From positions 6,510,001-6,574,000 of the forward strand of contig NZ_JACHMX010000001.1 in the NCBI RefSeq assembly GCF_014205155.1: a stretch of 64,000 nucleotides of DNA, given 5' to 3'. The DNA comes from Amycolatopsis umgeniensis (GTDB taxonomy: Bacteria; Actinomycetota; Actinomycetes; Mycobacteriales; Pseudonocardiaceae). Positions 8,581-36,114 of this stretch are shown one piece after another. How positions within the stretch are numbered: the first letter of the stretch is position 1; each line of letters begins with the position of its first letter. The translations under genes and the position numbers were made by a program. The notes below the pieces were generated by a model that did not search any database, was not told the origin of the DNA, and saw only the letters and a program-made list of their open reading frames with translations.

Positions 8581-10857
8581 ATGCACGAGACCGTGTTGAC
8601 CGGGTCCGGCTCCAGCACCGGCGGTCTGGGATTCAAACGGCATCTGCGCGCGGAGATCAGCGAGGGCAACGGCGCATACCTGTTCTCGGAGCAGGGGGTG
8701 ATCGCGATGCGCGGCGCGCAGGTCGCCTCGGTGGCGGCGCTGCTCGACGGCACCCGTGACCTCGACGCGGTTCTGTCCGCCTGCCCGGCGGGGATGAGCG
8801 CCGAGCAGGTCACCGGGGTGCTGGCGCGGTTGGTGGAAGCGGGTCTGGTCACCGTCCGGGTGCCGGACGAGCTCAGCGGGGACGAGCGCGCGCTCGCGTA
8901 CTGGGACGCGTGCGGTCTCGACGCGTCCGCGGTGGCTTGCCGGCAGAAGCCCGCGACGGCGAGCCTGACCGCGATCGGCCGCGGTGTGGACACCTCCCAG
9001 GTGCAGAACGCGCTCGTCGCGAGCGGTATCGAGGTGGTCGGCACCGCCTCCGAACTGGCCATCGTGCTGTGCGACGACTACCTCGACCCGAGGCTGGCCG
9101 AGATCGACGCCGAGCACCGGCGCACCGGCAGGCCGTGGTTGCTGGCGCGGCCGTCGGGTTCGCAGGTGTGGATCGGCCCGATCATGCAACCCGGCCGGTC
9201 CGGCTGCTGGCACTGCCTGACCAACCGGCTGTGGGGGCACCGGCACGCGGAGGCCTGTGTGCAGGAGGTGCTCGGGCACGACGGCCCCGCCTCGTTCCCG
9301 ATGCCCGCCGTGCCGCCGCTGACCGCGGCCGCGTCGCATCTGATCTCCCTCGAAGCGTCCAAATGGCTGGCGGGACACCGGTATCCGGGTCAGCAGGCCG
9401 TCTGGATCCTCGACACCCTCGACCTGCAGGGCAGGCTGCACGAACTGCGGCGGCGCCCGCAGTGTCCGGAATGCGGCGACGACGGGATCGTCGCCGAGCG
9501 GACGGCCGAACCGGTCGTGCTGCGGGAAGCGAAGAAGGCGACCTCGGGCGGTGGCGGGCACCGGACGCTCACCCCGGTCGAGGTGCTCGACCGCTACGGC
9601 CACCTGGTCAGCCCGGTCACCGGCGTCATCAAGGAGATCGCCCGCGACCCGAGGGCGCCGGCGTTCGTGAACGCGTACCGCTCCGGGCTCAACGTCGCGC
9701 GTCGGGTGCGTGGTGAGGCCGGCTTGCAGGCCGGGCTGCGCGGGGACAACGGCGGCAAGGGCGCGAGCCCGCTCGACGCCGAGGTCGGCGCGCTGTGCGA
9801 AGCGATCGAGCGGTTCTCCGCGAACTACCAGGGCGACGAACTGCGGATCCGGGACACCTTCCGCGCGCTCGGCGAGGACGCCGTCCACCCGAACTCGTGC
9901 ATGCTCTTCGACGAGCGCCAGTACGCCGCGCGCGACGAATGGAACGCCAAGCACGCGATCTTCCAGCACGTCCCCGAACGGTTCGATGACAAGGCCGCCG
10001 TCGACTGGACGCCGCTGTGGTCGCTTTCGCAGCAGCGCCGGAAGCTGATGCCGACGGCGTACCTCTACTACGGCGTGCCGCCGGAGTGCGGGATCACGGG
10101 GATGCGCGCCGACTCCAATGGCTGCGCGGCGGGCAGCAGCCTCGAAGACGCGATCCTGCAAGGACTTCTCGAGCTCGTCGAGCGCGACGCCGTCGCGATG
10201 TGGTGGTACAACCGGCTTCCCATGCCCGGCGTCGACATCGCCACGTTCGACGACCCGTGGGCCGAGGAGATGGTCGGGCAGTACGCGCGGGCAGGCCGGG
10301 AACTGTGGGTCCTCGATCTGACCGCGGACCTCGGCGTCCCGGTGATGGTCGCGCTGTCCAGGAGTATCGCCGGGCCGCGCGAGAACGTCATGATGGGATT
10401 CGGCGCCCACCTGGACCCCAGGACGGCGCTGCGGAGGGCGGTCAGCGAGCTCAACCAGATGATCCCCGCGGTGCTCGCGAACGACGTCGAACTCGACGAT
10501 CCCGATGCGGCGCAGTGGCTCCGGCACGCTACGGTCGCCAACCAGCCGTACCTGCGGCCGGCGCCCGGGCGATCGGCGAGACGGGCCGCGGACTTCAAGT
10601 TCGTCCGGCGGCCCGACGTACGGGACGACGTGGAATCACTGGTACGCAAGCTGTCCGCGCTGGGGATGGAGACGCTGGTGCTCGATCAGACCCGACCCGA
10701 CATCGACCTGCCGGTGGTCAGGGTGGTCGTTCCGGGGCTGCGGCCCTTCTGGAGCCGCTTCGCCCCCGGACGGCTGTTCGACGTGCCGGTGCGGCTCGGC
10801 AGGCTCGCCGAACCCACCTCCTACGACCGGCTGAACCCCTTCCCCATGTTCTTGTAG
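8581..10857 (+). CDS. YcaO cyclodehydratase fused to a leader-binding/E1-like domain
   Basis: A 758-residue fusion expected to cyclodehydrate Cys/Ser/Thr of a precursor peptide to azolines using ATP. Residues 1-300 resemble the peptide-binding/E1-like half. They include a four-cysteine zinc site: Cys209 and Cys212 (CWHC), Cys295 and Cys298 (CPEC). The YcaO domain spans about 370-758, with the ATP/Mg residues Glu407, Glu410 and Arg411 and the second set Glu531, Glu534 and Arg535. It ends NPFPMFL, a short version of the Pro-rich tail of azoline-forming YcaO proteins. The SagB gene follows after 18 bp. No precursor peptide is adjacent; the best candidate lies at 35923. Thioamide or amidine chemistry is less likely given SagB. 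Confidence 0.9.
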   Translation: MHETVLTGSGSSTGGLGFKRHLRAEISEGNGAYLFSEQGVIAMRGAQVASVAALLDGTRDLDAVLSACPAGMSAEQVTGVLARLVEAGLVTVRVPDELSGDERALAYWDACGLDASAVACRQKPATASLTAIGRGVDTSQVQNALVASGIEVVGTASELAIVLCDDYLDPRLAEIDAEHRRTGRPWLLARPSGSQVWIGPIMQPGRSGCWHCLTNRLWGHRHAEACVQEVLGHDGPASFPMPAVPPLTAAASHLISLEASKWLAGHRYPGQQAVWILDTLDLQGRLHELRRRPQCPECGDDGIVAERTAEPVVLREAKKATSGGGGHRTLTPVEVLDRYGHLVSPVTGVIKEIARDPRAPAFVNAYRSGLNVARRVRGEAGLQAGLRGDNGGKGASPLDAEVGALCEAIERFSANYQGDELRIRDTFRALGEDAVHPNSCMLFDERQYAARDEWNAKHAIFQHVPERFDDKAAVDWTPLWSLSQQRRKLMPTAYLYYGVPPECGITGMRADSNGCAAGSSLEDAILQGLLELVERDAVAMWWYNRLPMPGVDIATFDDPWAEEMVGQYARAGRELWVLDLTADLGVPVMVALSRSIAGPRENVMMGFGAHLDPRTALRRAVSELNQMIPAVLANDVELDDPDAAQWLRHATVANQPYLRPAPGRSARRAADFKFVRRPDVRDDVESLVRKLSALGMETLVLDQTRPDIDLPVVRVVVPGLRPFWSRFAPGRLFDVPVRLGRLAEPTSYDRLNPFPMFL

Positions 10858-10875
10858 ATCCCGCTGGAGCAACTG

Positions 10876-12345
10876 GTGTCGACTGATCCCCCCGCCGGTG
10901 TGGCCGAGACGATCCCCCTGTGGTCGCTCACCGACGACAGCCTTGTCGAGATCGGTGAGGACGGCTCACTGGTGGTCGTCACCCGGTGGGGGGAGTACGA
11001 CTTCGACCGTGCGGAACCACTGGTCCGGGAATCGTTGCGGCGGATGGCCTTGGGGCCGGTCTCCCTGGCGAACGTGACTTCGTCTTGGGAACCGGTCGAG
11101 CGTGAGCCCGATCTCGAAGGCGAGCTGAGCTGGACGGCCGAGGGCGCCGACGCGCTGCGCCAAGCGCTCAAGGAGCTCGGCGGTTCGGTGGTGCATTCAC
11201 TCGGTCTCGCCGACGGGAAAGGCCCGCTGCTGTCGGTGATCCCGGTGGTGCTCGCGCCCGTGTTCGAGCCGGTGGAGATCCCGGCCGCGCGCCCGATCCG
11301 GTTGTCCCGCTTCTGTTCCCTGCGCTCCGATGCCGACGGGATGGGGCTGGAGTCGCCGTCCGCGCGGTACCGCGTCGTGCTGTACCAGCCGTGGGCGGTG
11401 CACGTTGCCGCGACCTTGGCGACGGCGAAGTCGACGGGGGACATCGCCACCACGACGGGGATCGAGGCCGGCGTGGTCGGCGCGATCGTGTCCTATCTGG
11501 TCGCGGCGGGTGTCGTCCAGATCGCCGGGGAGCACGGCCGGTTCGCCGAGGACGACGACCCCGAGCTGGGCCTGTGGTCCCCGGACGAACTGTTGTTCCA
11601 CACCACGAGCCGGACCTGGCGGCCCGGTGGCCCGGCCGATCTGCCCGGGCTCGGGAAACCGCCGGTGGTCAAGGCCGCCACCGGCGAGGGACCGGTGTAC
11701 GCGCTCTACCGGCCGGATCTGGCCGACCGCGCGGAAACCGATCCGACGCTGACGACGTTGCTGGAGAACGACCACAGCTGCCCCGAATTCACCGAGGGCG
11801 TGCTGTCCGCGGAGCAGATCGGCGAGTTCCTGTTCCGCGGCGCGCGGATCCGGTCGATCGGGCCCGCCCACATGCCCAACGGGCCCAGCCACAGCGCTTC
11901 GCAGCGGCCGTACTTCAGCGTCGCCTGCCTGTACGAGCTCGAGCTGTACGTCTCGGTGAACCGTTGTTCGGGGCTGGATCGCGGGATCTACCACTACGAT
12001 CCGCTCGACCACCGGCTCAGCCTGGTCAACGACGACGAGTCCGATCTCGACGCGATGCTCGACATGGCGATGATCGGCGGCGGCAACCACCGGCGTCCCT
12101 CGGCGCTGATCACGGTGACCGCGCGGATGCCGAGGATGGCGTCGGTACTCGGCGGTGGCGCGTACGCCACGACGCTCGCGCACGTCGGCGCCTTGCAACA
12201 GACGCTTTATCTCGTCGCCCGCGCGATGGGGCTGACCGCGCACGCCGTCCCGGTGGACGCCGGCGACCGCGTCGACCGCGCCCTCAAACTCGAATGGCCC
12301 GCCGAGGTGGGCGTCGGGGAGTGCGCGCTCGATCTCCCGGCTTGA
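10876..12345 (+). CDS. SagB-type FMN dehydrogenase (azoline oxidase)
   Basis: A 489-residue protein of the nitroreductase-like SagB/ThcOx family, which oxidises azolines to azoles with FMN. An N-terminal winged-helix-like region of about 270 residues precedes the FMN domain (about 290-489). The usual motif RPY-PSGGA-LYELELY appears here as RPY-FSVAC-LYELELY (344-358), so the Ser-Gly-Gly core is altered. The rest of the domain looks intact (GIYHYDPLDHRL, LGGGAYATTLAHVGALQQTL). The GTG start lies 18 bp after the YcaO gene, so the two are co-transcribed. Whether the altered motif affects FMN or substrate binding is unknown. Confidence 0.85.
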   Translation: MSTDPPAGVAETIPLWSLTDDSLVEIGEDGSLVVVTRWGEYDFDRAEPLVRESLRRMALGPVSLANVTSSWEPVEREPDLEGELSWTAEGADALRQALKELGGSVVHSLGLADGKGPLLSVIPVVLAPVFEPVEIPAARPIRLSRFCSLRSDADGMGLESPSARYRVVLYQPWAVHVAATLATAKSTGDIATTTGIEAGVVGAIVSYLVAAGVVQIAGEHGRFAEDDDPELGLWSPDELLFHTTSRTWRPGGPADLPGLGKPPVVKAATGEGPVYALYRPDLADRAETDPTLTTLLENDHSCPEFTEGVLSAEQIGEFLFRGARIRSIGPAHMPNGPSHSASQRPYFSVACLYELELYVSVNRCSGLDRGIYHYDPLDHRLSLVNDDESDLDAMLDMAMIGGGNHRRPSALITVTARMPRMASVLGGGAYATTLAHVGALQQTLYLVARAMGLTAHAVPVDAGDRVDRALKLEWPAEVGVGECALDLPA

Positions 12346-12456
12346 CTGAACACCGATCTCGCGTGACTGAACACCGAACTCGCGTGATTGAAGGCGGATC
12401 TCGCGTGTTCCGTCTTCAATCACGCGAGATCGCCTCTCAATCACGCGAGATCGCCG
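12344..12456. repeat. Inverted repeat array with CTCGCGTGA core (array 1)
   Basis: Directly after sagB, three direct units (CTGAACACCGATCTCGCGTGA-like) are followed by two inverted units (TCAATCACGCGAGATCGCC). The RNA could fold into alternative long hairpins. The same core recurs at 31402-31539. It probably serves as a terminator or REP-like intergenic element. Confidence 0.8.
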
Positions 12457-12606
12457 TTCGTGCTGTCGACTCGACCGTTCGCCGATCGCGCAGACCTGGA
12501 TAACGCCTGGACAGACCCCATCTCGATCGCGTGTCGAGTGCTTCGAAATCGGTGACGCGTTTGCTGACCACAGAGGAAAAGCGACGGCGAATCCGAGGTT
12601 GGTCTG

Positions 12607-13509
12607 ATGCAGCTACGAACAGTCGCCACGGCGGCGAACGAGAAAGGCGTCATCGAATCCGGTCGGCTCCTCGAGCCGGCGTCCCCCTTGCAACCCGCGG
12701 TGCTGCAGGCCATCTCAGCGATGCACGCGAGGTATTTCGACCCGATCACCTTGGGCGACTTGGCATCCGAAGTCTTCGTCAGCCCGTTCCACTTCTCGCG
12801 GATCTTCACCAAGGCGACCGGGGTGACCCCCGGCCGGTACCTCACCGCGATCCGGCTCTTCGAAGCGAAACGACTGCTGCTGACGACCTCGCTGACGGTG
12901 TCGGACATCGTGTGCAGCGTCGGCTACAGCAGTGTCGGCACGTTCACCAGCCGCTTCACCCGTGCGGTCGGGATGACCCCGACCCAGTACCGTGACCCCG
13001 AGGTCGGCAAGCTGCTCGTGGCGCTGGCGCCGCATTTCCAGCGGCTCCCCACCCTGGAGGCGTTGCACAGCGCCGGAATGGGCTGCGCCACGATGCGCAG
13101 CGGCACCGGCACGATCAGCGTGCGCGTCGAGACCCCGCGCGGGGCGGGCCCGGCGAGTGTCCTCATCGGACTGTTCGCCGAGTCGATCCCGCAGTGCGGC
13201 CCGGTCGCGTTCGGCGGCAGGGCCAACGTCCTGTCCGCGGACATCGAGATCCAGAACGTCCCCGAAGGCCGCTGGACCGTGATCGCGGTCGCCGAGCACG
13301 CCGCGGGGACGGCGGCCTCTTCGTTCTCCGTGGGCACCTTGCCCGCCCGCGTCGACATCACCCGGTTCGGCCGGGTCCATCTGCGGATGCCGATGCGCAC
13401 CCCGCAGCCGACCGACGCCCCGATGGCGATCACCCTGGCGGGCGGGCCCGCTTCCACCGGCAACCGGATGACCATGCCCGCGCCCGGCTACCTCCGTGCG
13501 GTGGCCTGA
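12607..13509 (+). CDS. AraC-type regulator with N-terminal HTH (copy 1)
   Basis: A 300-residue regulator in which the double helix-turn-helix comes first (about residues 30-130; SPFHFSRIFTKATGVTPGRY, SVGYSSVGTFTSRF). A unique C-terminal domain follows (140-300) instead of the usual N-terminal sensor. The same unusual order and the matching C-terminal stretch (GLFAESIP, NVPEGRW) are seen in the regulator at 44069, so they are paralogues bracketing the locus. It stands between sagB and the UNBL gene, behind its own promoter region, and is followed by a strong terminator. It probably controls the neighbouring enediyne operon. Confidence 0.85.
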   Translation: MQLRTVATAANEKGVIESGRLLEPASPLQPAVLQAISAMHARYFDPITLGDLASEVFVSPFHFSRIFTKATGVTPGRYLTAIRLFEAKRLLLTTSLTVSDIVCSVGYSSVGTFTSRFTRAVGMTPTQYRDPEVGKLLVALAPHFQRLPTLEALHSAGMGCATMRSGTGTISVRVETPRGAGPASVLIGLFAESIPQCGPVAFGGRANVLSADIEIQNVPEGRWTVIAVAEHAAGTAASSFSVGTLPARVDITRFGRVHLRMPMRTPQPTDAPMAITLAGGPASTGNRMTMPAPGYLRAVA

Positions 13510-13652: not shown

Positions 13653-14630
13653 TTGGGCAATGGTTGGCGCACGTTCAGACGTCGCATGATCACACCGGAT
13701 GTCTCCGAGACGTCGCTGGACAAGCGGGGTTTCCACAAGAAAAGCCCAGCCGCTCAAGAATTGCTGGAGACCGTCGGTGAGAAATTCCTGCTCGGCTACG
13801 CGCACGCTGTCGAAGCGCGCACCGTCGAGCAGGCGGAAGAATGGCTCGAAGACATTCCGGTGAAATACCGCGGTTTCGCCTACGAAGGCGCGGGAATGGG
13901 GTACGGAATGCTGGACGGGCTGCCGGGAGGCGGCCGAGGGCACATCGCGGACTTCCTCGCCGGTCCCGGCGAGAAACACGACTACATCATCTACGTCGGT
14001 GTCGGCTGGGCGATGGCGCGGCTGCCGCGTTTCCGCTGGCCGTCCGCCGAGGACTTCGACCCGTTGCTGCGCTGGCTGGTGCTCGACGGGTACGGCTTCC
14101 ACCAGGCCTATTTCAAGACCGCCAAGTACATCGACGGTCAGTTCCAGGACCAGGACTTCAACTGGCCCAAGGGAAACAACGGCTACTCGTTGCGGGCGAT
14201 CGACCAGGGCATCGGCCGGGCGCTGTGGTTCATCTGCGGCACCGACGTCGATCGTGTCACCGACGCGATCGCGCGCTTCCCCGAGCGGCGCCACGGAGAC
14301 CTCTACGCCGGTGTCGGGCTCGCCTCGACGTACGCGTGCGGTGTCACCTCCGACGAACTGCTGAAGCTGGCCGAGTTCGCCGGTGAGTACCGGGGAAACC
14401 TGGCGCAGGGCAGCGCTTTCGCCGCCGAGGCCCGCGTCCGCGCCGGGCTGCTGATCCCCGAGACCGATGTCGCCACACAGGCCATCTGCGGGCTGCCCGC
14501 CGAGCGTGCCGCGGCCATCACCCAGGAAGTTCGCCCCGCCGTGGTCCGCGACGGCGAGCTCCCGCATTTCGAAACCTGGCGACAGCAGATCGCCGCCGAG
14601 GTACTCACTTCTGGAGGTGCAGGCAAATGA
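13653..14630 (+). CDS. unbL: DUF1702/UNBL enediyne cassette protein (copy 1)
   Basis: A 325-residue soluble protein of the DUF1702 family, one of the proteins that accompany PKSE in enediyne loci (UNBL). Its reaction is unknown. Conserved blocks are RGFAYEGAGMGYGMLDGLPG (74-93) and DQGIGRALWF. The TTG start follows GGGGAG at 7 bases. An ATG nearby is out of frame. Its stop overlaps the UNBV start (AATGA), so unbL-unbV-unbU-P450 are translationally coupled. A second DUF1702 gene lies at 43013, which is unusual for one locus. Confidence 0.88.
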   Translation: MGNGWRTFRRRMITPDVSETSLDKRGFHKKSPAAQELLETVGEKFLLGYAHAVEARTVEQAEEWLEDIPVKYRGFAYEGAGMGYGMLDGLPGGGRGHIADFLAGPGEKHDYIIYVGVGWAMARLPRFRWPSAEDFDPLLRWLVLDGYGFHQAYFKTAKYIDGQFQDQDFNWPKGNNGYSLRAIDQGIGRALWFICGTDVDRVTDAIARFPERRHGDLYAGVGLASTYACGVTSDELLKLAEFAGEYRGNLAQGSAFAAEARVRAGLLIPETDVATQAICGLPAERAAAITQEVRPAVVRDGELPHFETWRQQIAAEVLTSGGAGK

Positions 14631-16591
14631 GGTCGACCCTGGGCTGGCTCCGCAAGCAGCTTGCGGGCATCGTGGCGCTGCTGTTGATGGCGGGACTCTT
14701 CGTGGTGGCGCAGCTGCCGACGGTCTCCACCGCCGAAGCGGACACCATGGCCTCCAAGTACGCGTTCGAACCCTTGACGATCGCCCTGCCGGAGGCGGCG
14801 AAGAGCCAGTCGATCCGCACGGTGAACAAGGAGTACGAACACATCCGCGCCTGGATCTCGTCGGTCGGCGCCGCGATCGCGGTGAACGACCTCGACGGGG
14901 ACAAGCTCGCCAACGACCTGTGCTTCGTGGACCCGCGCAGCGACCAGGTGGTCGTCACCCCGACGCCGGGCAAGGGCGGTGACCGGTACGCGCCGTTCGC
15001 GCTCGACGCGGCGCCGTTGCCGATGGGCAAGTACATCGCACCCATGGGCTGTGTCCCCGCCGACCTGAACGAGGACGGGCGGGTCGACCTGCTGGCCTAC
15101 TACTGGGGCCGTACGCCGATCGCCTTCCTGGCGAAGCCGGTCGCAACCAAACTCGAGCCGTCGGCGTATGAGCCGGTGGAGCTGGTGCCGGGCAACAACT
15201 CCAAGAACGGCGAGTACTCCGGTCCACTGTGGAACACCAACGCCGCGTCCGTCGGTGACTTCGACGGCGACGGCCACCAGGACGTCTTCATCGGCAACTA
15301 CTTCCCCGACAGCGCGGTGCTGGACGACCGGGTCGACGGCGGGGTCGAGATGAACAAATCGATGTCGCACGCCGACAACGCCGGTGGCAAGTACATCCTC
15401 CGGTTCACCGGTGCCACCCAGGGCGCGAAACCGACCGCGACGTTCGCCCTCGACGACAAGGCCATCCCGGCCGACGCCCAGGGCGGCTGGTCGCTCGCGG
15501 CCAGTGCCACCGACGTCGACGGCGACAACCTGCCGGAGCTCTACATCGGCAACGACTTCGGGCACGACCGCCTGCTGTACAACAAGTCCCGCCCCGGCCA
15601 CGTCGAATTCGCCGAGGTGAAGGGGATCCGCGGGGCCGCCGAGCCGAAGTCGAAGGTGCTCGGCAACGACTCCTTCAAGGGCATGGGCGTCGACTTCGCC
15701 GACCTCGACCACGACGGTCTCTACGACCTGTACGTCAGCAACATCACGACGTCGTGGGGTATCGAGGAAAGCCACTTCCAGTTCATGAACACCGCCAAGG
15801 ACACCGCGGATCTGCGCGGCCGTCTGCAGGGCGGTGAGGCACCGTGGGTGGACCGCAGCGCACAGGCGGGCACCGCGTGGTCCGGCTGGGGCTGGGACGT
15901 CAAGATCGCCGACTACAACAACAGCGGCGAGTCCGTGATCACCCAGGCGACCGGTTTCGTCAAGGGTGACGTCAACCGCTGGCCGCAGCTGCAGGAACTG
16001 GCGACGTCCAACGACGAACTGCTGAAGCACCCGTACTTCTGGCCGAACATGGTGGCCGGTGACGACGTCGGCGGCGACCACACGCTGCACTTCTGGGCCA
16101 AGGGATCCGACGGCCGCTACACCGACCTGGCCCCGCGCCTCGGTCTCGCCGTCCCGGTGCCCACTCGCGGCATCGCCACCGGTGACGCCGACGGCGACGG
16201 CAAGCTCGACTTCGCCGTGGCCCGCCAGTGGGAGCAGCCGATCTTCTACCGCAACGTCAGCCCCGACTCCGGGTCGTACTTGAACCTGAAGCTGGTGCAC
16301 GACAAGGCTTCGGCCGAAGGTCCGCTGCCGGCGGCGGGAACCGCGGCGATCGGCGCGCAGGTCACCGTCATCACCCCCGACGGCAAGAAGTACATGGACC
16401 GCGTCGACGGCGGCAGCGGCCACTCCGGCAAGCGCAGCCACGAGGTCCAGATCGGACTCGGCAAGGTCACCGGGCCGGTGAAGGTGTGCCTGCAGTGGCG
16501 CGACCTGACGGGGACCATCCGCACCCAGGAAGTCCAGCTGACCCCGGGCAACCACACGTTCCAGCTCGGCGCTCAGGCTAAGGAGAAGTGA
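14627..16591 (+). CDS. unbV: UNBV enediyne cassette protein, CRTAC1-like
   Basis: A 654-residue exported or membrane-tethered protein. The N-terminus has a hydrophobic signal segment (12-35). The body is an FG-GAP/VCBS beta-propeller with calcium-binding loops such as DFDGDG at 211-216 and DADGDG at 520-525. An ASPIC/UnbV domain closes the chain (about 545-650). UNBV is a constant member of the enediyne cassette, with unknown chemistry. Its outward location suggests late maturation, export or protection rather than chain assembly. It is coupled to unbL upstream and unbU downstream. Confidence 0.92.
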   Translation: MRSTLGWLRKQLAGIVALLLMAGLFVVAQLPTVSTAEADTMASKYAFEPLTIALPEAAKSQSIRTVNKEYEHIRAWISSVGAAIAVNDLDGDKLANDLCFVDPRSDQVVVTPTPGKGGDRYAPFALDAAPLPMGKYIAPMGCVPADLNEDGRVDLLAYYWGRTPIAFLAKPVATKLEPSAYEPVELVPGNNSKNGEYSGPLWNTNAASVGDFDGDGHQDVFIGNYFPDSAVLDDRVDGGVEMNKSMSHADNAGGKYILRFTGATQGAKPTATFALDDKAIPADAQGGWSLAASATDVDGDNLPELYIGNDFGHDRLLYNKSRPGHVEFAEVKGIRGAAEPKSKVLGNDSFKGMGVDFADLDHDGLYDLYVSNITTSWGIEESHFQFMNTAKDTADLRGRLQGGEAPWVDRSAQAGTAWSGWGWDVKIADYNNSGESVITQATGFVKGDVNRWPQLQELATSNDELLKHPYFWPNMVAGDDVGGDHTLHFWAKGSDGRYTDLAPRLGLAVPVPTRGIATGDADGDGKLDFAVARQWEQPIFYRNVSPDSGSYLNLKLVHDKASAEGPLPAAGTAAIGAQVTVITPDGKKYMDRVDGGSGHSGKRSHEVQIGLGKVTGPVKVCLQWRDLTGTIRTQEVQLTPGNHTFQLGAQAKEK

Positions 16592-28276: not shown

Positions 28277-28717
28277 ATGGCCGACTACTACGAGATCCTG
28301 CACACGGTCGGGTTCGAAGAGACCAACCTGGTCGGCAACGTCTACTACGTGAACTACGTGCGCTGGCAGGGCCGGTGCCGCGAGATGTTCCTGAAGGAGA
28401 AGGCGCCCGCCGTGCTCGAAGAGGTCCGCCACGACCTCAAGCTGTTCACGCTCAAGGTGGATTGCGAGTTCTACGCGGAGATCACCGCGTTCGACGAGCT
28501 GTCCATCCGGCTGCGGCTGGAAGAGCTGACGCAGACCCAGATCCAGTTCACCTTCGACTACGTCCACCTCACCGCGGAGGGCGAACGGCTGGTGGCCCGC
28601 GGACGACAGCGGATCGCGTGCATGCGCGGCCCGAACACGGCGACGGTGCCCAGCAGGGTGCCCGAGCAGCTGCGTGAGGCGCTGGCCCCGTACGCGGTCG
28701 ACGGCAAGGGGGAGTGA
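28277..28717 (+). CDS. Enediyne hotdog-fold thioesterase (TEBC)
   Basis: A 146-residue single-domain hotdog thioesterase like SgcE10, CalE7 and DynE7, which releases the polyene from PKSE. The start MADYYEILHTVGFEETNLVG and the YYVNYVRWQGRCRE stretch are typical. It follows pksE by one base and precedes a flavin-reductase gene, so they share a transcript. Length is normal for the family. Confidence 0.95.
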   Translation: MADYYEILHTVGFEETNLVGNVYYVNYVRWQGRCREMFLKEKAPAVLEEVRHDLKLFTLKVDCEFYAEITAFDELSIRLRLEELTQTQIQFTFDYVHLTAEGERLVARGRQRIACMRGPNTATVPSRVPEQLREALAPYAVDGKGE

Positions 28718-28718
28718 C

Positions 28719-29291
28719 GTGGGGACGGTGGAGGAGCCCTCGCGGCCGGTGCTGAAACGCCTGCCGACGCCCGCGACGCGACGCCGGTTGTCCGCGCAAG
28801 CCGGGCTGCGGGAGGTGATGGGCCAGTTCGCCACCGGGGTCACCGTGCTGACCGCCGGCGGCGAACGGGCCCACGGGATGACCGCCAACGCGGTCACCTC
28901 GGTGTCCCTCGAACCGCCGATGGTGCTGTGCTGTGTTTCCCGCGCGGCCCGGATGCACGAGGCGATCGTGACGGCGGGCTCGTACGCGGTCACGGTGCTG
29001 GCGTCCGATCAGAAGGACCTGGCGAAGTACTTCGCGGATTGGCGACGGCCCGCCGGGCTCGCGCAGTTCGACTCGGTGGACTGGACGGCGGGTCCGCAGA
29101 CCGGCTCCCCGCTGCTCGGCGGCGCGCTGGCGTGGCTGGAATGCGAGCTCGCCGAGGTCTACGAAGGCGGTGACCACTCGATCTTCCTCGGCAAGGTGGT
29201 CGCCTCGAGCCGCGGCACCGCGCAGGACTCGCTGGTCTTCTACGGCGGCGGCTACCACCAGATCGACGGCAGGGTCCGGGCATCCGCCTGA
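28719..29291 (+). CDS. Flavin reductase-like FMN-binding protein
   Basis: A 190-residue protein of the split-barrel flavin reductase family (MGQFATGVTVLTAGGERAHG, ANAVTSVSLEPPMVL). It supplies reduced FMN or FAD to partner monooxygenases, probably within the enediyne pathway. No FADH2-dependent monooxygenase was recognised in the operon; the FAD protein at 33373 could be a client. GTG 28719 begins two bases after the thioesterase stop and has GGGGAG upstream. Confidence 0.88.
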   Translation: MGTVEEPSRPVLKRLPTPATRRRLSAQAGLREVMGQFATGVTVLTAGGERAHGMTANAVTSVSLEPPMVLCCVSRAARMHEAIVTAGSYAVTVLASDQKDLAKYFADWRRPAGLAQFDSVDWTAGPQTGSPLLGGALAWLECELAEVYEGGDHSIFLGKVVASSRGTAQDSLVFYGGGYHQIDGRVRASA

Positions 29292-29306: not shown

Positions 29307-29483
29307 ATGACCACCAACGAACCCGCCACCGTCCGGCCGGACGAGACGCCCGCCCCGGCGCCCCGTCCGCCGGTGGTGACCACGATGCCTCGGCTCGGAC
29401 GGGGGGTGTGCTGGCGCGACATCGTGCGCGAGATCGAACTCGACGAGCTCGAGCGCGAGGCCCGCATGAAGGAGGCGGCGTGA
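29307..29483 (+). CDS. Small protein upstream of the carboxylase beta gene
   Basis: A 58-residue protein with a Pro-rich first half and a charged helical second half (CWRDIVREIELDELEREARM). AAGGA precedes the ATG. Its stop overlaps the GTG of the carboxylase beta gene (GTGA), and its last bases supply that gene's GGAGG. Family unknown. The placement suggests an accessory or docking peptide for the carboxylase or the PKS. Confidence 0.65.
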   Translation: MTTNEPATVRPDETPAPAPRPPVVTTMPRLGRGVCWRDIVREIELDELEREARMKEAA

Positions 29484-31183
29484 CCCTGCAAGGTGATCCG
29501 GGCGCTCAGCGCACGGAGGACTCCGAGGTGGTGCCGCTGCCGGAAGACCGGCTGCGGCGCCCGCGGATCCCGAGGGCGAACGACGGGCAGGTGATCCCGC
29601 TCGCCCGCGGCGCCGAACCGGTGCACCCACCGGAACCGACCATGCCGTTGCTGCGCACCCAGCGCGACGAACTGCGCGAGCACATCGTCGACGGACGGCT
29701 CGACGGCGTCCGGCGGCAGCACTCGCTCGGCAAGCACACCGCGCGCGAACGGCTGGATCTGTTGCTGGATCCCGATTCCTTCACCGAGGTCGAGTTGTAC
29801 CGGCGGCATCAGGCGAGCGGGCTCGGGCTGGCGGAGAACCGGCCGTACACCGACGGCGTCATCGCGGGTTCGGGCACCATCGACGGCAGGCGCGTGTTCG
29901 TCTACGCGCAGGACTTCACCGTCTTCGGCGGTTCGCTCGGCGAGGCGCACGCGGCGAAGATCCACAAGGTGATGGATCTGGCGATCGCCACCGGTTCACC
30001 GCTGATCGGGCTCAACGACAGCGGCGGGGCGCGGATCCAGGAAGGCGTCATGGCGCTCAACGGCTACGGCGGCATCTTCCGCCGTCAGGTCGAAGCGTCC
30101 GGCGTCATCCCGCAGATCAGCGTGGTGCTGGGGCCGTGCGCCGGCGGGGCGGCGTATTCGCCCGCGCTGGCGGACTTCGTCTTCATGGTGCGCGACACCG
30201 CCCGCATGTACCTGACCGGGCCGGACGTCGTCGAGACCGTGACCGGCGAACGCGTCAGCCACGACGAACTCGGTGGTGCGGACGTGCACGGCGCGTCGTC
30301 CGGCGTGGCGACGGTGGTGCACGACGACGAGGAGAGCTGCCTCGCCGACGTCCGCTACCTGGTGTCGCTGCTGCCGTCGAACTACCTGGAGCCCTCGCCC
30401 GGCGAGCCTTCGCGGGACGCGGGCAAGGACCGGCGGCCCCGGTTCGCCGAACTCGTCCCCGTGGAGCCGAACAAGCCCTACGACATGCGGGACGTGTTCG
30501 CCGAACTCACCGACGACGGCGAGTTCTTCGAGCTGCACGAACGGTGGGCGCGGAACGTGCTGTGCGCGCTCGCGCGGGTCGACGGGCGTGTGGTCGGCCT
30601 GGTCGGCAACCAGCCGGTGGTGTTCGCCGGCGTACTCGACGGCCCGGCCTCGCAGAAGGCGGCGCGGTTCGTGCGGTTCTGCGACGCGTTCAGCATCCCG
30701 CTGGTGACGCTCGTGGACGTTCCCGGCTTCCTGCCGGGGGTCGAACAGGAGCACTCCGGGATCATCCGGCACGGGGCGCAGTTGCTGCACGCCTACTGCG
30801 AGGCGACCGTGCCGCGGATCCAGGTCATCCTGCGCAAGGCCTACGGCGGCGCGTACATCGTGATGGACTCGCGGTCCATCGGGACCGACCTGTCGCTGGC
30901 CTGGCCGACCAACCAGATCGCCGTGATGGGCGCGGAGGGCGCCGTCAACGTGCTGTTCCGCAAGGACCTCGCCGCCGCTCCCGACCCGGACGCCTTGCGC
31001 GCCCACCTGGTCGCCGAGTACACAGAGGAGTTCATGAACCCGCAGTACGCCGCCGAACGGGGGCTCGTCGACGACATCATCGACCCGGCGGACACCCGCT
31101 CGGCCGTCGCCAGGGCGCTGGCCATGCTGCAGGACAAGCGGAAGGCGGCGCCCCAGCGCAAGCACGGCAACCACCCGATCTGA
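29480..31183 (+). CDS. Acyl-CoA carboxylase beta (carboxyltransferase) subunit
   Basis: A 567-residue carboxyltransferase of the PccB/AccD type that makes malonyl-CoA or methylmalonyl-CoA. The N- and C-terminal crotonase-fold halves show NDSGGARIQEG and GPCAGGAAYSPAL, then VDVPGFLPG and AYGGAYIVMDS. About 54 residues extend before the usual family start (MPLLRTQRDEL). I kept GTG 29480, which overlaps the previous stop; ATG 29642 is the alternative. The epsilon gene follows after 10 bp. The biotinylated alpha subunit is not in the window, so one from elsewhere must be shared. Precursor supply to PKSE is the likely role. Confidence 0.92.
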   Translation: MTLQGDPGAQRTEDSEVVPLPEDRLRRPRIPRANDGQVIPLARGAEPVHPPEPTMPLLRTQRDELREHIVDGRLDGVRRQHSLGKHTARERLDLLLDPDSFTEVELYRRHQASGLGLAENRPYTDGVIAGSGTIDGRRVFVYAQDFTVFGGSLGEAHAAKIHKVMDLAIATGSPLIGLNDSGGARIQEGVMALNGYGGIFRRQVEASGVIPQISVVLGPCAGGAAYSPALADFVFMVRDTARMYLTGPDVVETVTGERVSHDELGGADVHGASSGVATVVHDDEESCLADVRYLVSLLPSNYLEPSPGEPSRDAGKDRRPRFAELVPVEPNKPYDMRDVFAELTDDGEFFELHERWARNVLCALARVDGRVVGLVGNQPVVFAGVLDGPASQKAARFVRFCDAFSIPLVTLVDVPGFLPGVEQEHSGIIRHGAQLLHAYCEATVPRIQVILRKAYGGAYIVMDSRSIGTDLSLAWPTNQIAVMGAEGAVNVLFRKDLAAAPDPDALRAHLVAEYTEEFMNPQYAAERGLVDDIIDPADTRSAVARALAMLQDKRKAAPQRKHGNHPI

Positions 31184-31193
31184 ACGGAGCGTC

Positions 31194-31385
31194 ATGTCAC
31201 CGTCCGAAGTGGACAGCGTGCCGGTCTTCCGGGTCCTGCGGGGGGATCCGGAAGACGCCGAACTGGCGGCGCTCGTCGCCGTCTTCACCGCGCTCGCTTC
31301 GGCGGCGCCCCCGCCCGCCGCGCCCGCGCGGTCGGCCTGGTCACCCCGGACCCCGGCGACCTGGCGCACGTCGATCCTGCGCTGA
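31194..31385 (+). CDS. Acyl-CoA carboxylase epsilon subunit
   Basis: A 63-residue protein with the short family signature VLRGDPEDAELAALVAVF (14-31), followed by a Pro/Ala-rich linker and a tail ending near WRTSILR. Epsilon subunits stabilise actinobacterial acyl-CoA carboxylase complexes. It directly follows the beta gene and is the last gene before a palindromic array. Confidence 0.88.
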   Translation: MSPSEVDSVPVFRVLRGDPEDAELAALVAVFTALASAAPPPAAPARSAWSPRTPATWRTSILR

Positions 31386-31539: not shown

Positions 31540-31548
31540 TCCCTTGAG

Positions 31549-32181: not shown

Positions 32182-32294
32182 AGAACATGAGCCGCGACCA
32201 GCGTGGACAGCACGGACAGAGAAGACCACCGGGTATCGCGCGCGGGAGAATGAAGATCGTCCGCGACCCGGCAAGACCTCGAGGAGGCCTTCGG

Positions 32295-32603
32295 ATGGCT
32301 ATGCGCCTCCAGCTCACGTCGGGTTTGCAGGTGCTCGAAGAATGGGCGGTGAACGCACCCCAGGCCGACCGCAATGTTATCTACGAAGCCCTGTTCGCGG
32401 TAGCCGACGGATCCGCTTTTCTCATCTACGACATTTTCGGAGATGGCCGGGATCCGCATCAGTTCATTATTCTGGTGAAGCACGACCTCGTGATCAAAAT
32501 AGGGCTCCGCCGCACCGATTCCTCGTTCGAGATCGTTTATATCGGCGCACTGGAGCAGGGGACGCCCGCCGCGGCGTGGGCCGAGGACTCCGACGGGTCC
32601 TGA
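32295..32603 (+). CDS. Hypothetical 102-residue protein with atypical codon use
   Basis: A small protein (VLEEWAVNAPQADRNVIYEA, FIILVKHDLVIKIGLRR) predicted as mixed alpha/beta without membrane segments. AGGAGG eight bases upstream fixes ATG 32295. The frame is open further left but lacks a site. Codons such as ATA, ATT and TTT are commoner than in its neighbours, hinting at recent acquisition. The overall shape recalls small RelE-like folds, but no catalytic residues can be assigned. Confidence 0.6.
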   Translation: MAMRLQLTSGLQVLEEWAVNAPQADRNVIYEALFAVADGSAFLIYDIFGDGRDPHQFIILVKHDLVIKIGLRRTDSSFEIVYIGALEQGTPAAAWAEDSDGS

Positions 32604-32815
32604 CCTGCTACGCGGGCGGGCGAGGCCGACGAGACCAGGCTTCATACCGCTGAACGGACCAGTCCCGGGACCGGTGACGGCCGCCTTTCGCACCAGTGGA
32701 TCATGCTTTCCTCATCTTGACATCGTCCACTTGGGCATGAAATTCTTCCGGTGTTTGCGGATTAAGAATTCCTGGTGGGCGAAATTGCGGTAATCGAGGT
32801 CTGGAGGCATGAAAG

Positions 32816-33364
32816 ATGTCGTCACCCGAATTTCCTGGATTGGACGTTTCCACCCGGGTACGCGCACGTGACATTCAGATGGCCGGGGTGGCCGACGTCC
32901 GCCGCCGGGTACTGATGATCTCCGGTGCGATCGACACCACCGAGCACGACGTTTCGGTCAGCGTCAACCTGCCGGAGCCGGGCCGCTGGCAGGTGATCAA
33001 GTCCGAGACCAACCTGACCGACAAGACCTGGGTCGCGATGCAGGTCGTCACCGACGAGGACTCGACCTTCGTCGACGACGCCGAGACCCTCGTGCTCTCG
33101 CGCCAGTTCTCGAAGTCCTTCATGACCCCGGACCTGCGCCGCCTCACCTTCTACGACGGTGAAGTCCGGCCCGGCGAGGCCGTGCTGAAGGTGTACTCGC
33201 TGGACGCGGGCGGGCGGAAGCCGACCTACTCGTACTCCCGGTACAGCCCGATCGCGACCGACACCGCCGAGAAGTCCCGGCAGACGCTGGACGAGATGAT
33301 CAGCAACGGGATGCGGCAACGCCCGGTGATCGAGCTGATCGTCCCGGTGACCGTGATCGGCTGA
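32816..33364 (+). CDS. Unrecognised 182-residue protein, first gene of the FAD/AhpD operon
   Basis: A soluble, beta-rich protein (VSVSVNLPEPGRWQVIKSE, VLKVYSLDAGGRKP). It lacks a signal peptide or cysteines. GGAGG eight bases upstream supports ATG 32816. It starts a compact operon with the FAD protein, a 158-residue protein and an AhpD-like protein, followed by the candidate precursor peptide. A role in recognising or shielding the peptide is possible but only a guess. Confidence 0.6.
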   Translation: MSSPEFPGLDVSTRVRARDIQMAGVADVRRRVLMISGAIDTTEHDVSVSVNLPEPGRWQVIKSETNLTDKTWVAMQVVTDEDSTFVDDAETLVLSRQFSKSFMTPDLRRLTFYDGEVRPGEAVLKVYSLDAGGRKPTYSYSRYSPIATDTAEKSRQTLDEMISNGMRQRPVIELIVPVTVIG

Positions 33365-33372
33365 GTACGCCG

Positions 33373-34692
33373 GTGATCACCTTCGTTCCGGAACCCCGGC
33401 TGCTCGAATCGCCGCGCGGGCGGGAGTGGCCGGTCCTGCCGGCCACCCGCTCGGCCGTCACCCCCGAACCGCCGTCCGGCGCCGACGTGGTCATCGTCGG
33501 CGCCGGCCCCGCCGGGCTCGCGGTCGCTTCCGCGTTGTGGCACCACGGTGTCCGGGACCTCGTCCTCGTCGATCGCGACGGCCGTCCCTGCGGCCGGTTC
33601 TTCGACCGCGTCGATCTGCTCGGCCAGCGCGTGCTGCGTTCGCCGTACGAACACCACCCCGGCGTCGAGGGGTACCGCGACTGCGAACTGCTGGACTTCG
33701 CCCGGCTGCACTGGTCGGTGCTGACCCCGGTGGAGCGCCGCGAGATCCGCATGGCGCAGGCGGGGCATCGCTCGGTCGTCCCCGTCGACGTCTTCGAGGC
33801 GTACTGCCGTCATCTGGCCGCGAGCCATCACGTCACCGAGCGGACCTGGCGCGGTTCGGTCCGTGAAGTGCTGCCGACGTCGGAAGCGGTCACCGTGCGC
33901 GCGGACCGGTTCTCCGTCACCGCGCGCCACGTGGTGCTGTGCCTCGGCGAGGAACGCCGATCCGCCCCGGACACCTGGTGGGGCGGGGGTTATCCGCCAC
34001 GCGGCGTGAGCTACTGGGACGAACCCGTCCCCACCGCCGGCAACCGGCTCGCCGTCGTCGGCGCGGGTCTCACCGCCGCGCATCTGATCTCCAACGGCCT
34101 CGCCCAGGGCCGCGAGGTGCACTGGGTGGTCCGCGAAGCAGGCGAGCGCTACCAGTGCGCCGACGTCAACTCGTCGTTCTTCCGTCCCGAGGGCCGTGCC
34201 CGGTTCGACGGCGTGAGCTGGTCCGAAAGGCTCGAACTGATGGGCCGGTTCCGGCGCGCGTCGATCATGTTCGAGTTCCGGCCGACACTCGAGAAGGCCG
34301 AAGCCGAAGGGCGGCTGGTCGTGCATCGCGGCAAGGCGATCACGAAGGTGACGCCGGGGGGCGGCCTCCACCTCGAAGACGGTTCGCGCGTCTCCGTGGA
34401 CCACGCCGTCCTCGCGCTCGGCACGACACCCTCGATCGGCGACGGCCTGATGCCGGACAACGCCGTTCTCGACCAGGGCGGCTGGCCTCAGCTGGACGAG
34501 CGCACCTTCGCCTACGTCGGCGCGCCCAGGGTCTTCGCCGTCGGCGCCGCCGCGGGGATGGCGCTGGGCCCGGCCGCCCGCAACATCGACGGCCACCGTG
34601 TCGCCACCGCGCGGGTCGCGGCCGCCGTCGCCGAAAACCTGCGCCGGGACGCCCCGCTGCGGACGGCCGCGAAGGACGTCGCCCGTGTCTGA
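33373..34692 (+). CDS. FAD/NAD(P)-binding monooxygenase-like protein
   Basis: A 439-residue flavoprotein with two nucleotide folds: GAGPAG at 43-48 for FAD and VVGAGLTAAH near 228-237 for NAD(P)H. This resembles SidA/lysine N6-oxygenase and related FAD-dependent enzymes. The C-terminus has an ATG-type motif (LALGTTPS) and an FAD-closing stretch (FAVGAAAGM). A substrate in the peptide or polyketide arm is inferred. GTG start 8 bp after the upstream gene; the next gene overlaps by 8 bp. Confidence 0.82.
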   Translation: MITFVPEPRLLESPRGREWPVLPATRSAVTPEPPSGADVVIVGAGPAGLAVASALWHHGVRDLVLVDRDGRPCGRFFDRVDLLGQRVLRSPYEHHPGVEGYRDCELLDFARLHWSVLTPVERREIRMAQAGHRSVVPVDVFEAYCRHLAASHHVTERTWRGSVREVLPTSEAVTVRADRFSVTARHVVLCLGEERRSAPDTWWGGGYPPRGVSYWDEPVPTAGNRLAVVGAGLTAAHLISNGLAQGREVHWVVREAGERYQCADVNSSFFRPEGRARFDGVSWSERLELMGRFRRASIMFEFRPTLEKAEAEGRLVVHRGKAITKVTPGGGLHLEDGSRVSVDHAVLALGTTPSIGDGLMPDNAVLDQGGWPQLDERTFAYVGAPRVFAVGAAAGMALGPAARNIDGHRVATARVAAAVAENLRRDAPLRTAAKDVARV

Positions 34693-35161
34693 GCCCTACG
34701 ACTCACGGTTCACCCTGCCTTCGATCGACGACGACCCGGCGACCGAGGCGGGGGTGATCCTGATGGGACTCGACGCCGAACGGCTGCTCGCCGGCGTCGG
34801 GCTCGCGCGGATCGCCGACGAGCCCGGGCTGGTCGCGCTCGCCGTCGACCAGGCCCGGCACGACGCGCTCGACCTGGGCACCGAAGCGCTGATCGAAGCC
34901 GGGATCGCCCGCTGGCGCGCGGTCCGCCCGCTGATCGAAGCCGGTCAGGAGATGACGGCGGCCGGTTCCCTGCGGAAAGAATGGGAACACACCACCAAGC
35001 GGGTCACCGACACGGTGACCGGGCTCGGTCCGGCGTCGGTGGCCTGCCTCGCGGCTTGCTGGCTGCGCCGCGAAGACGTCGACGAGTTCGCCGAACACGG
35101 GCGGACGCCGGAAAAGGGGAGTGGCACGCACGATGTCCTATCTCGGGTCTTTGCCGACTGA
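34685..35161 (+). CDS. Unrecognised 158-residue protein in the FAD/AhpD operon
   Basis: A mostly helical acidic protein (DAERLLAGVGLARIADEPGL, VACLAACWLRREDVDEFAEH) with two closely spaced cysteines near residues 122-126. The GTG start lies inside the end of the FAD gene, and its end overlaps the AhpD-like gene by 29 bp, so the three are tightly coupled. No family assigned. Confidence 0.6.
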   Translation: MSEPYDSRFTLPSIDDDPATEAGVILMGLDAERLLAGVGLARIADEPGLVALAVDQARHDALDLGTEALIEAGIARWRAVRPLIEAGQEMTAAGSLRKEWEHTTKRVTDTVTGLGPASVACLAACWLRREDVDEFAEHGRTPEKGSGTHDVLSRVFAD

Positions 35162-35678
35162 CGCCACCTTGCTGCAGGTCTTCCAGAAGTTCCCCGCTCC
35201 GGCTTCGAAACTGCTGGACTTCCACGAACTCGTCATGCGGGCGCCGTCGGTGTTCGGCCCCGGTGAGCGGGAACTGATCGCGGCCTACGTCTCCGGCGTC
35301 AACGACTGCCGGTACTGCCACGGCGTCCACACCGTCACCGCGGAGGCTTTCGGCGTGCCTGAGGGCCTTCTGGCCGCCGCTCTGGCGGATCTGGACTCCT
35401 CGCCCGTGGACGACCGGATGAAGCCCGTGCTGGCCTACGTGGGCAAGCTGACGCGGACGCCGTCCCGGGTGACCGAGGAGGACGCCGCGGCCGTCTTCGC
35501 GGCGGGCTGGGACGAGGCGGCGCTGCACGACGCCGTACTCGTGTGCGCCCTGTTCAACTTCATGAACCGGATGGTCGAGGGACTCGGGATCCGCGCGGAC
35601 GCCGACTATGCGAAAACCTCGGGCGTGCGGCTCAAGGAGGGCGGCTACGCCGGTCTGGCGCGGCTGCTCGAGTCCTGA
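35133..35678 (+). CDS. AhpD/carboxymuconolactone-decarboxylase-like protein 2
   Basis: A 181-residue helical protein with a complete AhpD redox motif, Cys59, Cys62 and His66 in NDCRYCHGVH. It resembles peroxidase-related CMD proteins. It could reduce peroxides formed by the flavin or P450 enzymes, or act on thiols of the peptide. ATG 35133 has GGGGAG at 11 bases; GTG 35121 is too close to that site. It is the last gene before the candidate precursor peptide. It is the second AhpD-type gene of the locus. Confidence 0.85.
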   Translation: MSYLGSLPTDATLLQVFQKFPAPASKLLDFHELVMRAPSVFGPGERELIAAYVSGVNDCRYCHGVHTVTAEAFGVPEGLLAAALADLDSSPVDDRMKPVLAYVGKLTRTPSRVTEEDAAAVFAAGWDEAALHDAVLVCALFNFMNRMVEGLGIRADADYAKTSGVRLKEGGYAGLARLLES

Positions 35679-35922
35679 CGCCGGCCGTCCACTCCGGACA
35701 CTGTCTCCGGTGGTGACCGGCCTGTCGCGCTCCGCGCCCGGAAACCGCCTCCCTTGCTCCATCCGGAAGTCGCGACGGCGGAAGTGGAGCAGTCGAAGAG
35801 AACCTTCCGGCGTAGGCGAAAAGCACATCCGCGCGATGATGCATGGCACTGGTTGCGCACCGGCCTCGGGCAGCAGGATTTCCTCATCGAAGGAAACCAC
35901 CGAAACGCCTGGGAGACATGCG

Positions 35923-36114
35923 ATGCAGAACGCTGTGCTCGACAACGTCCGTTCGCTCTTCGCCGTCCGGGGAATCGACACCGGTGTCGCCGGTGACCAG
36001 GTCGACCTGGTGATCGACCGGTTCGACAACTGGACCAACCGGCCGGGCGGTCAGGTCTTCGACTGTTTCACCGGCGCCTGTTGTACCGCTCCGCCCTTGG
36101 CCGAGGCGAGTTGA
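35923..36114 (+). CDS. Candidate RiPP precursor peptide (63 residues)
   Basis: The protein divides into an amphipathic leader-like part (1-42; MQNAVLDNVRSLFAVRGIDT onwards, acidic, no Cys) ending PGG, and a short C-terminal part (QVFDCFTGACCTAPPLAEAS). Cys48, Cys53, Cys54, Thr50, Thr55 and Ser63 are possible azole sites. The PGG before it could be a cleavage site. GGGAGA six bases before the ATG supports translation, and a terminator hairpin follows 12 bp after the stop. The same locus holds YcaO and SagB, which need such a substrate. The link is inferred: no experimental or homology evidence is available here. An alternative is a small redox or metal-binding protein. Confidence 0.65.
   Translation: MQNAVLDNVRSLFAVRGIDTGVAGDQVDLVIDRFDNWTNRPGGQVFDCFTGACCTAPPLAEAS

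Follow-up and report, generated by a model that had tools for sequence, protein, structure and literature searches.

Within a gene cluster of the DNA-cutting enediyne antibiotic type in the soil actinomycete Amycolatopsis umgeniensis, a YcaO cyclodehydratase and a SagB dehydrogenase are encoded which probably form the enzyme half of a peptide pheromone cassette resembling ComQXPA of Bacillus. The peptide would carry azoline or azole rings (azol(in)es), and the cassette would control a SARP activator and thereby the enediyne cluster. The genes lie in a stretch of 64,000 nucleotides (the window), positions 6,510,001 to 6,574,000 of a 9.23 Mb genome contained in one contig. The cassette consists of a precursor peptide, YcaO, SagB, a membrane histidine kinase (HK), a LuxR-type regulator and often a SARP. 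A preliminary description of the window had proposed that the enediyne and azole pathways yield one joint product. The genes it named (YcaO, SagB, enediyne polyketide synthase (PKSE), thioesterase, UnbL/V/U, a peptide open reading frame (ORF) and a frame of paralogous SARP and HxlR regulators) were all found when ORFs were called with a codon-usage script and named with Pfam and NCBIfam profiles. On the genes, the peptide and co-control that description holds; on the joint product it is probably wrong. Relatives were surveyed in 297 genomes of the family and precursors in 80 genomes of the genus.

The YcaO gene (8581–10857, plus strand) encodes a cyclodehydratase of the TruD/LynD type with a fused part similar to SagC and to the RiPP recognition element (RRE), where RiPP denotes a ribosomally synthesized and post-translationally modified peptide. 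The protein was recognised by PF02624 (E 1.9e-105), TIGR03604 (274 bits, cut-off 219) and TIGR03882 (152 bits, cut-off 37). The nearest solved structures are TruD and LynD, which align over nearly the full length with 558 and 550 bits. Two CxxC pairs, C209/C212 and C295/C298, do not vary in a YcaO alignment of 57 rows, at columns occupied in 50 rows or more, and are presumably a zinc site. The following gene (10900–12345, plus strand) encodes a SagB/ThcOx-type dehydrogenase according to TIGR03605 (111 bits, cut-off 78), and its residues 133–241 match ThcOx in the Pfam-stage scan. By sequence, the enzyme set of an azol(in)e RiPP (thiazole/oxazole-modified microcin or linear azol(in)e-containing peptide), namely YcaO, an E1/RRE part and a dehydrogenase, appears to be complete.

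In many relatives a small ORF (about 40–80 aa as called) immediately precedes YcaO. The window clade and its closest relatives have it next to a LuxR/HK pair instead, and no precursor was found directly upstream of the window YcaO. A 28-row alignment revealed that these ORFs have little in common except a leader motif, LVIDxFDxW, and a short tail in which the Cys/Ser/Thr content varies. The window ORF (35923–36114, plus strand, 63 aa) contains the leader LVIDRFDNW and the core CFTGACCTAPP (..CFTGACCTAPPLAEAS). Since the leader motif is common to small ORFs adjoining the same YcaO family, this ORF is likely the YcaO/SagB precursor, as had been proposed. A leader and a Cys/Ser/Thr core, the precursor features required of an azol(in)e RiPP, thus appear to be present, with a core that varies. 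When 5.8 billion proteins were searched with the window precursor, restricted to proteins with exact five-residue words in common, 16 matches at E ≤ 0.01 were obtained, its own kind included; all 12 for which a source was named are hypothetical proteins, 11 of them from Amycolatopsis. The window YcaO occurs at 92–96% identity in eleven named genome records, all from Amycolatopsis (A. coloradensis, A. azurea, A. orientalis, A. keratiniphila and others).

The cluster copy of the precursor (at least 75% identity) was found in 19 of the 80 genomes of the genus. Sixteen of these strains have the core CFTGACCTAPP (type I, in one strain with PPM in place of PPL), G054 has CFTTVCTTAPP, and G287 and G231 have CFTTCEVPPP; at least three further cores occur among database relatives. 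Moreover, extra precursor copies are present elsewhere in the genome of all 16 type I strains and in none of the other three, amounting to 25 copies in the 80 genomes. The 15 stand-alone precursors examined (L197 and L198 in G000; L199–L211) have divergent leaders and a constant core, CFTGACC, and no YcaO, LuxR or HK gene was found within 7 kb of them. These copies, the strangest feature observed, may serve as additional sources of a single signal. By eye, one stand-alone family adjoins an apparent catalase gene. Ten aligned stand-alone precursors and the cluster copy have a common box at about −105. The box GGMGYAGNCGAAA found 5′ of precursors has its only exact match in the window at the precursor; with up to two mismatches it occurs in 35 places compared with 20.2 expected (as many in none of 100 shuffles). 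Genome-wide there are 13 exact matches, two of them at precursors, compared with three for the reversed pattern. After these counts the box was set aside as a regulon marker.

Downstream of the window precursor are the genes for a LuxR/NarL-type response regulator (36351–36959, plus strand) and a tandem polytopic HisKA_3 kinase (36963–39275, minus strand), characterised by Pfam, hydropathy, an AlphaFold2 model and its DesK-like kinase part and likely the receptor. The preliminary description had treated YcaO and SagB as a lone pair; the pair is present, but in most loci relatives of this kinase and regulator adjoin it. An HK gene lies within 15 kb of YcaO in 35 of 43 YcaO regions and a LuxR gene in 34, and in the window and G054 the two adjoin the precursor rather than YcaO. 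LuxR relatives are mostly 63–83% identical, compared with mostly 51–69% for YcaO outside the near clade. The window HK is a tandem duplicate in which each helical membrane part is followed by a kinase part. A single-length HK (about 370–440 aa) was noticed 3′ of SagB in relatives such as G283, unlike the arrangement in the window. The AlphaFold2 model (18 sequences, mean pLDDT 79.6, pTM 0.60) contains helical membrane bundles with short loops. Its kinase parts resemble DesK, whose kinase domains were the leading Foldseek matches, and no recognisable match to the membrane part was among the 50 matches listed. The modelled HK has no apparent extracellular domain, which would fit a small ligand bound in or at the membrane.

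A two-strand expectation-maximisation (EM) search 5′ of 37 precursor genes revealed a 16-bp inverted repeat, ATATGTGTTTTTCATA; its log-likelihood ratio, the best from 60 starts, is 270, compared with 71–76 in three base-shuffled sets (20 starts each). A 31-site matrix was made, excluding six of the 37 sequences (the window, G054, G132 and three orphan precursors). In position weight matrix scans it scores a site in the SARP/YcaO promoter of the window (8484–8499, plus strand, ACATGGGTTTTTCACA), not itself in the matrix, at 15.2. It gave 51 matches of at least 11 in 1.10 Mb (the first 20 regions, training sites included) compared with four in one base-shuffled copy, and one match in 400 kb from 20 enediyne stretches without the cassette. 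When the matrix was built from 12 non-enediyne cassette sites only, the same site ranked first in the 64-kb window at 13.7, and the best scores in 60 shuffled windows had a mean of 8.75 and a maximum of 14.3. Among the other enediyne-linked regions, 17 of 19 were tested with the 12-site matrix, and the precursor/YcaO promoter ranked first in 12 and second in five of these 17. The two left out were G054, which has a site under the 31-site matrix, and G097, which has none and in which YcaO and SagB were missed by gene calling, YcaO being detected by tblastn. At a score of at least 10, the 12-site matrix gave 40 matches in 959 kb of the 17 linked regions and three in the 400 kb of cassette-less stretches.

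In eleven named window-clade loci the element lies 93–98 bp upstream of the base that aligns to residue 1 of YcaO, and it was found upstream of YcaO in 32 of 43 regions, the SARP/YcaO promoter of the window included. Of the 34 loci with LuxR within 15 kb, 28 have a site of at least 11 within 600 bp upstream of YcaO. Of the nine loci without LuxR at that distance, the window, G054, G056 and G283 do have a site, their LuxR gene being farther away or beyond the stretch; no site reaches 11 in the other five, which lack both HK and LuxR. Further sites occur in G214 and G260 between a divergent gene of the major facilitator superfamily (MFS) and a ten-gene run, which in G214 encodes PrpF, an acyl-CoA dehydrogenase, an amidohydrolase, an MFS protein, two ATP-grasp proteins, a protein without a match, a flavin (FAD) enzyme, a pyridoxal phosphate enzyme and a methyltransferase. 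A tandem box 5′ of the window precursor (35786–35828) contains a diverged copy of the putative operator (minus strand, about 35813–35828, score 8.9). A stricter IUPAC form of the operator was found in seven places in the genome, one of them inside the window, compared with one for the control. The element itself is observed, and we propose that it is a binding site of the cassette LuxR. On the evidence of this element, the co-control put forward in the preliminary description is likely.

Two side observations concern similar sequences. Three overlapping or close operator-like palindromes were seen in the scans at 44932–44998 (44932, 44933 and 44983), between an AraC gene and another LuxR gene beside UnbL2. 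A relaxed operator pattern has exact matches at 1092159, 1936594, 5718328 and 6504008 of G000; all four have the identical sequence GCGTGGAGTTTTCACG and are possibly a repeat element.

Comparison of strains revealed one place where the peptide and its putative receptor differ together. On the YcaO tree G054 is the sister of G287/G231, and the synonymous difference between G054 and G287 is 0.057–0.173 in 23 genes of the region (CMD1, DUF6235, acyl-CoA carboxylase (ACC) epsilon and small ORFs left out). Higher values were obtained for the peptide core (0.355), LuxR (0.307) and HK (0.298), and the adjoining Sua5 gene is at 0.113. The difference climbs inside the peptide gene and drops back past HK. 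A shorter rise is present in the intergenic stretch 5′ of the peptide gene, there between G287 and G231 too, and another lies between HK and Sua5. At the protein level G054 and G287 differ by 6.5% in the leader, 32% in the core, 21% in both HK membrane parts and 2.3% in PKSE. The simplest cause would be replacement of core, regulator and receptor together as one block.

From this, the following mechanism is proposed. The RRE-like part of YcaO would bind the 63-aa precursor at its LVIDRFDNW leader, and Cys and Thr residues of the core would be converted to azol(in)es by YcaO and SagB, as expected of their families. The leader would be removed and the core exported; candidate enzymes were not found in the cassette. 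The polytopic HK would sense the core and, as is typical of its family, would phosphorylate the adjoining LuxR-type regulator. This regulator would bind the 16-bp inverted repeat at the divergent SARP/YcaO promoter or at the precursor promoter, raising both the SARP and the signal itself, and the SARP would switch on the enediyne genes. Other genera would use the same cassette beside other clusters. Peptide core and receptor would constitute a specificity pair which can be exchanged together, as the one block difference in DNA suggests.

Several results weigh against a pheromone. The block difference represents one event, seen in two descendants that are nearly identical, and HK shows no marked change between types I and III although their cores differ. 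Sensors 1 and 2 of HK have partial Mantel correlations of 0.87 and 0.61 with core distance, but the values are also raised for the kinase parts (0.70 and 0.67), YcaO (0.60), LuxR (0.63) and SARPa (0.40). As the correlation is not specific to the sensors, it was dropped as proof of co-evolution. At least one of the 60 shuffled windows outscored the site in the window, and in six of the 34 loci with a nearby LuxR the 600 bp upstream of YcaO contain no strong site, although G278 and G194, which belong to these six, have one at the precursor. The raw table of LuxR against site gave a Fisher p of only 0.034, because the window, G054, G056 and G283 were counted as lacking LuxR yet have a site. With the 31-site matrix no site of at least 11 was found before the PKSE or UnbL genes of the window, and therefore SARP is the likely link to the enediyne genes. 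Among the cassette genes there is no recognisable exporter or leader peptidase. Lastly, much of what was observed would also be expected of a self-sensing antimicrobial peptide.

The last point leads to the best surviving alternative, an independent azole RiPP antibiotic that is merely co-produced, with HK and LuxR sensing the peptide or its damage for self-control. The precursor and enzymes do constitute a minimal azole RiPP set, and two-component systems beside RiPP genes can perform self-sensing, as in nisin. On balance this explanation is doubtful: the cassette has no recognisable immunity protein, exporter or protease, and operator-like sites are also found before the MFS gene and biosynthetic run of other enediyne loci. 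In addition, core and receptor differ as a block where YcaO and SagB do not, and the stand-alone precursors lie in apparently ordinary gene neighbourhoods.

The pheromone reading is further informed by the distribution of the cassette. From the 297 genomes, 98 long YcaO matches of at least 37% identity were kept as loci; some second tandem copies, the weakest matches listed and all unlisted matches were left out. They were compared with 92 of the listed DUF1702 matches, so that absence of DUF1702 here means absence among those 92. As a raw count, 29 of the 98 loci, from several genera, have a DUF1702 gene no more than 60 kb away, with gaps of up to 21.4 kb; DUF1702 is present in 116 of the 297 genomes. 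At 58% identity or more, 25 of 27 YcaO loci are enediyne-linked, and the others are G057 and G124 (in G124 YcaO and DUF1702 are on separate contigs, so it is unlinked in the locus count and linked on the tree).

Linkage in several genera and the position of both gene sets in one regulated neighbourhood would suit the joint product of the preliminary description, in which the enediyne core would carry the modified peptide as a unit that binds DNA or protein. The search for PKSE-type loci with YcaO that it had suggested confirmed the linkage, but also showed that each half occurs without the other. In 20 sampled 20-kb DUF1702 stretches from loci without linked YcaO, none of YcaO, SagB, LuxR and HK was found, while PKSE was found in 12 and UnbV in 14, at 59–70% identity, and DUF5987 with GMC in 14; 14 of the genomes sampled have no long YcaO match at or above 37% among those listed. 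Enediyne loci of this kind, with no linked YcaO and SagB, are what the preliminary description had named as evidence against its proposal. Conversely, 15 of 20 YcaO loci away from DUF1702 have HK and LuxR within 15 kb, 12 of the 15 with a recognised precursor and eight with an upstream SARP. The cassette adjoins genes for type II polyketide synthase (PKS) components in U083 (KS-alpha/KS-beta-like, acyltransferase and cyclase genes, with homologues in U213), a type I PKS in U030, AMP-ligase and acyl-CoA dehydrogenase genes in U031, lipoyl enzymes in U193, and LacI and LuxR-type regulators in U147. U100, counted as away from DUF1702, has CMD1, f21 and w7-type neighbours also found in enediyne loci. 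Because the cassette occurs beside very different chemistry, it more likely regulates or signals than supplies a building block. Moreover, the core varies strongly among loci with similar enediyne genes, and no ligase for the joining was recognised among the Pfam-scanned genes (4703–51660; a few ORFs below 60 aa and the remaining genome lie outside the scan). A joint product was rejected as the principal explanation since the halves are not always together and the cores vary, and we regard it as very unlikely.

Chance co-location on one island, with no functional tie between enediyne cluster and regulated RiPP cassette, is similarly improbable. The cassette is movable and sometimes lies near ordinary genes, and the linked loci G228, G190 and G201 have no SARP a relative. 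Yet on a 57-row YcaO tree the 29 enediyne-linked rows require four changes, compared with a mean of 19.2 after shuffling (as low in none of 500), and relatives at least 60% identical to SARP a, found in 17 of 43 YcaO regions, are confined to the main enediyne-linked clade (G056 itself is unlinked). A protective role of the modified peptide in the producer, perhaps as a trap or carrier of the enediyne replacing an apoprotein, is hardly credible: the core is Cys-rich in the window clade, but cores from other enediyne loci have one Cys (for example G239, G194 and G141) or none (G260 and G174), and the cassette is also found without enediyne genes.

Among the 15 non-enediyne cassettes SagB is whole in ten and an N-terminal half in five. 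The truncated form (161–226 aa) belongs to one branch (L097 in U193, L098 in U083, L104 in U224, L105 in U213 and L106 in U206), whose products may remain azolines because SagB is cut to its N-terminal half. Three of the five cores contain a common F-[ST]-V-H-[TC] stretch. A sister YcaO branch (L099 in U239, L103 in U060 and L107 in U170) lacks a nearby SagB, HK, LuxR and strong operator and has motif-bearing small ORFs upstream in two of the three loci; it is probably a different RiPP type.

The remaining genes of the window identify it, by sequence, as an enediyne cluster, with the expected PKSE domain set, E10 thioesterase and UnbL/UnbV/UnbU genes. All of the following are on the plus strand. 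An AraC-type regulator (12607–13509) precedes UnbL1 (DUF1702, 13686–14630, PF08012 E 3.7e-128), UnbV (14627–16591, UnbV_ASPIC and FG-GAP domains) and an UnbU-like protein (16597–17586). The latter has no Pfam match and was named by position; it adjoins UnbV in most enediyne loci and has 52–77% matches outside the near clade. A cytochrome P450 (17583–18935), a DUF5987 protein (18941–19498) and a GMC oxidoreductase (19495–21147) follow. PKSE (22438–28275) contains ketosynthase, acyltransferase, ketoreductase and dehydratase domains by Pfam, DGACSS and GHSLG by pattern search, and PDB matches that include DynE8 chains. LHLSSI and WSALECVRK were spotted by eye and are presumably acyl carrier protein (ACP)-like and phosphopantetheinyl transferase-like motifs. 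The thioesterase (28277–28717) is E10-type, its nearest PDB entries being ACP-polyene thioesterase (4i4j) and CalE7, with DynE7 lower in the ranking. Next are a flavin reductase (28719–29291), the carboxyltransferase and epsilon subunit of an acyl-CoA carboxylase (29480–31385), and DUF6235, DUF6423, FAD oxidoreductase, DUF6187 and CMD/AhpD genes (32295–35678).

The preliminary description covered 8581–36114. The enediyne genes continue beyond 36114, with a second DUF1702 gene, UnbL2, at 43013–44008 (plus strand, PF08012 E 3.8e-140); the two DUF1702 copies are tandem in most relatives and apart in the window. Two SARPs and two HxlRs frame the region, all on the minus strand: HxlR a (6792–7478, PF01638) and SARP a (7521–8360, BTAD and Trans_reg_C, divergent from YcaO) on one side, and HxlR b (40238–40924) and SARP b (40986–41804), with LuxR b (41973–42578), on the other. 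The b copies of the window share 60% and 65% identity with the a copies found in G124 and G283. An alpha/beta hydrolase gene lies at 47103–48047 (Pfam), and Rfam gave zero matches at the gathering threshold.

The cassette kinase was compared with ComP as generally known for its kinase class and number of transmembrane segments. In ComQXPA a pre-peptide, modifying enzyme, histidine kinase and response regulator occur together and distinct communication types exist (PMC4008528, PMC4408185). Similarly, the cassette has a pre-peptide beside a polytopic HisKA_3 kinase and a LuxR/NarL-type regulator. It differs in that YcaO and SagB, which would form azol(in)es, replace the ComQ isoprenyl transferase (none of that family is among the Pfam-scanned window genes), that the kinase is often tandem, and that a SARP is nearby. 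Compared with ComQXPA pherotype exchange, there is one clear peptide/receptor block and none for type III against type I. The cyanobactin enzymes TruD, LynD and ThcOx are alike in the near full-length YcaO match, the SagB–ThcOx match and the CxxC pairs, but the cassette has a different precursor family and linkage to HK, LuxR and SARP. Subtilisin proteases of the PatA/PatG type are a hallmark of cyanobactins, and no subtilase was found among the Pfam-scanned genes. C-1027, calicheamicin and dynemicin represent enediyne PKSE cluster types. The window resembles these in its PKSE, E10 thioesterase and UnbL/V/U, and is unlike them in its attached peptide cassette.

Goadsporin is an azole peptide that is reported to elicit secondary metabolism and morphogenesis in actinomycetes (PMC5303826); it differs from the proposed cassette signal in being an antibiotic, with six azoles and dehydroalanines. 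An enediyne cluster has also been reported in Amycolatopsis sp. BCA-696 (PMC11237095), and for Bacteroidales it is stated that signalling proteins near RiPP precursors could point to signalling (PMC10352776). The text of a survey of azole RiPPs contains no mention of Amycolatopsis, LuxR or histidine kinase (PMC4603692). Literature searches linking enediyne with YcaO returned no related paper, and those linking enediyne with SagB, or peptide pheromone with YcaO cyclodehydratase, returned none. No prior description of this cassette was found in the literature searched, outside which most subscription papers lie. We know of no cognate receptor for goadsporin and, to our knowledge, it is not encoded inside a polyketide cluster.

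More tentatively, the cassette may represent a family-wide pheromone class made by a cyanobactin-type heterocyclase. Such a class would have interchangeable core and receptor types and often tandem kinases, would gate enediyne, type II and type I clusters, and in one clade would be fed by scattered precursors with the home core type. If this is true, it would explain the short azole-RiPP sets within unrelated polyketide clusters. RiPPs made by YcaO and SagB would then join the thiolactone and prenylated pheromones as signals, with both receptor and operator named. In culture, enediyne clusters and many others of actinomycetes stay silent; if a tailored peptide signal controls them, the inducer could be predicted from the core at each locus, and silence would become a testable absence of signal.

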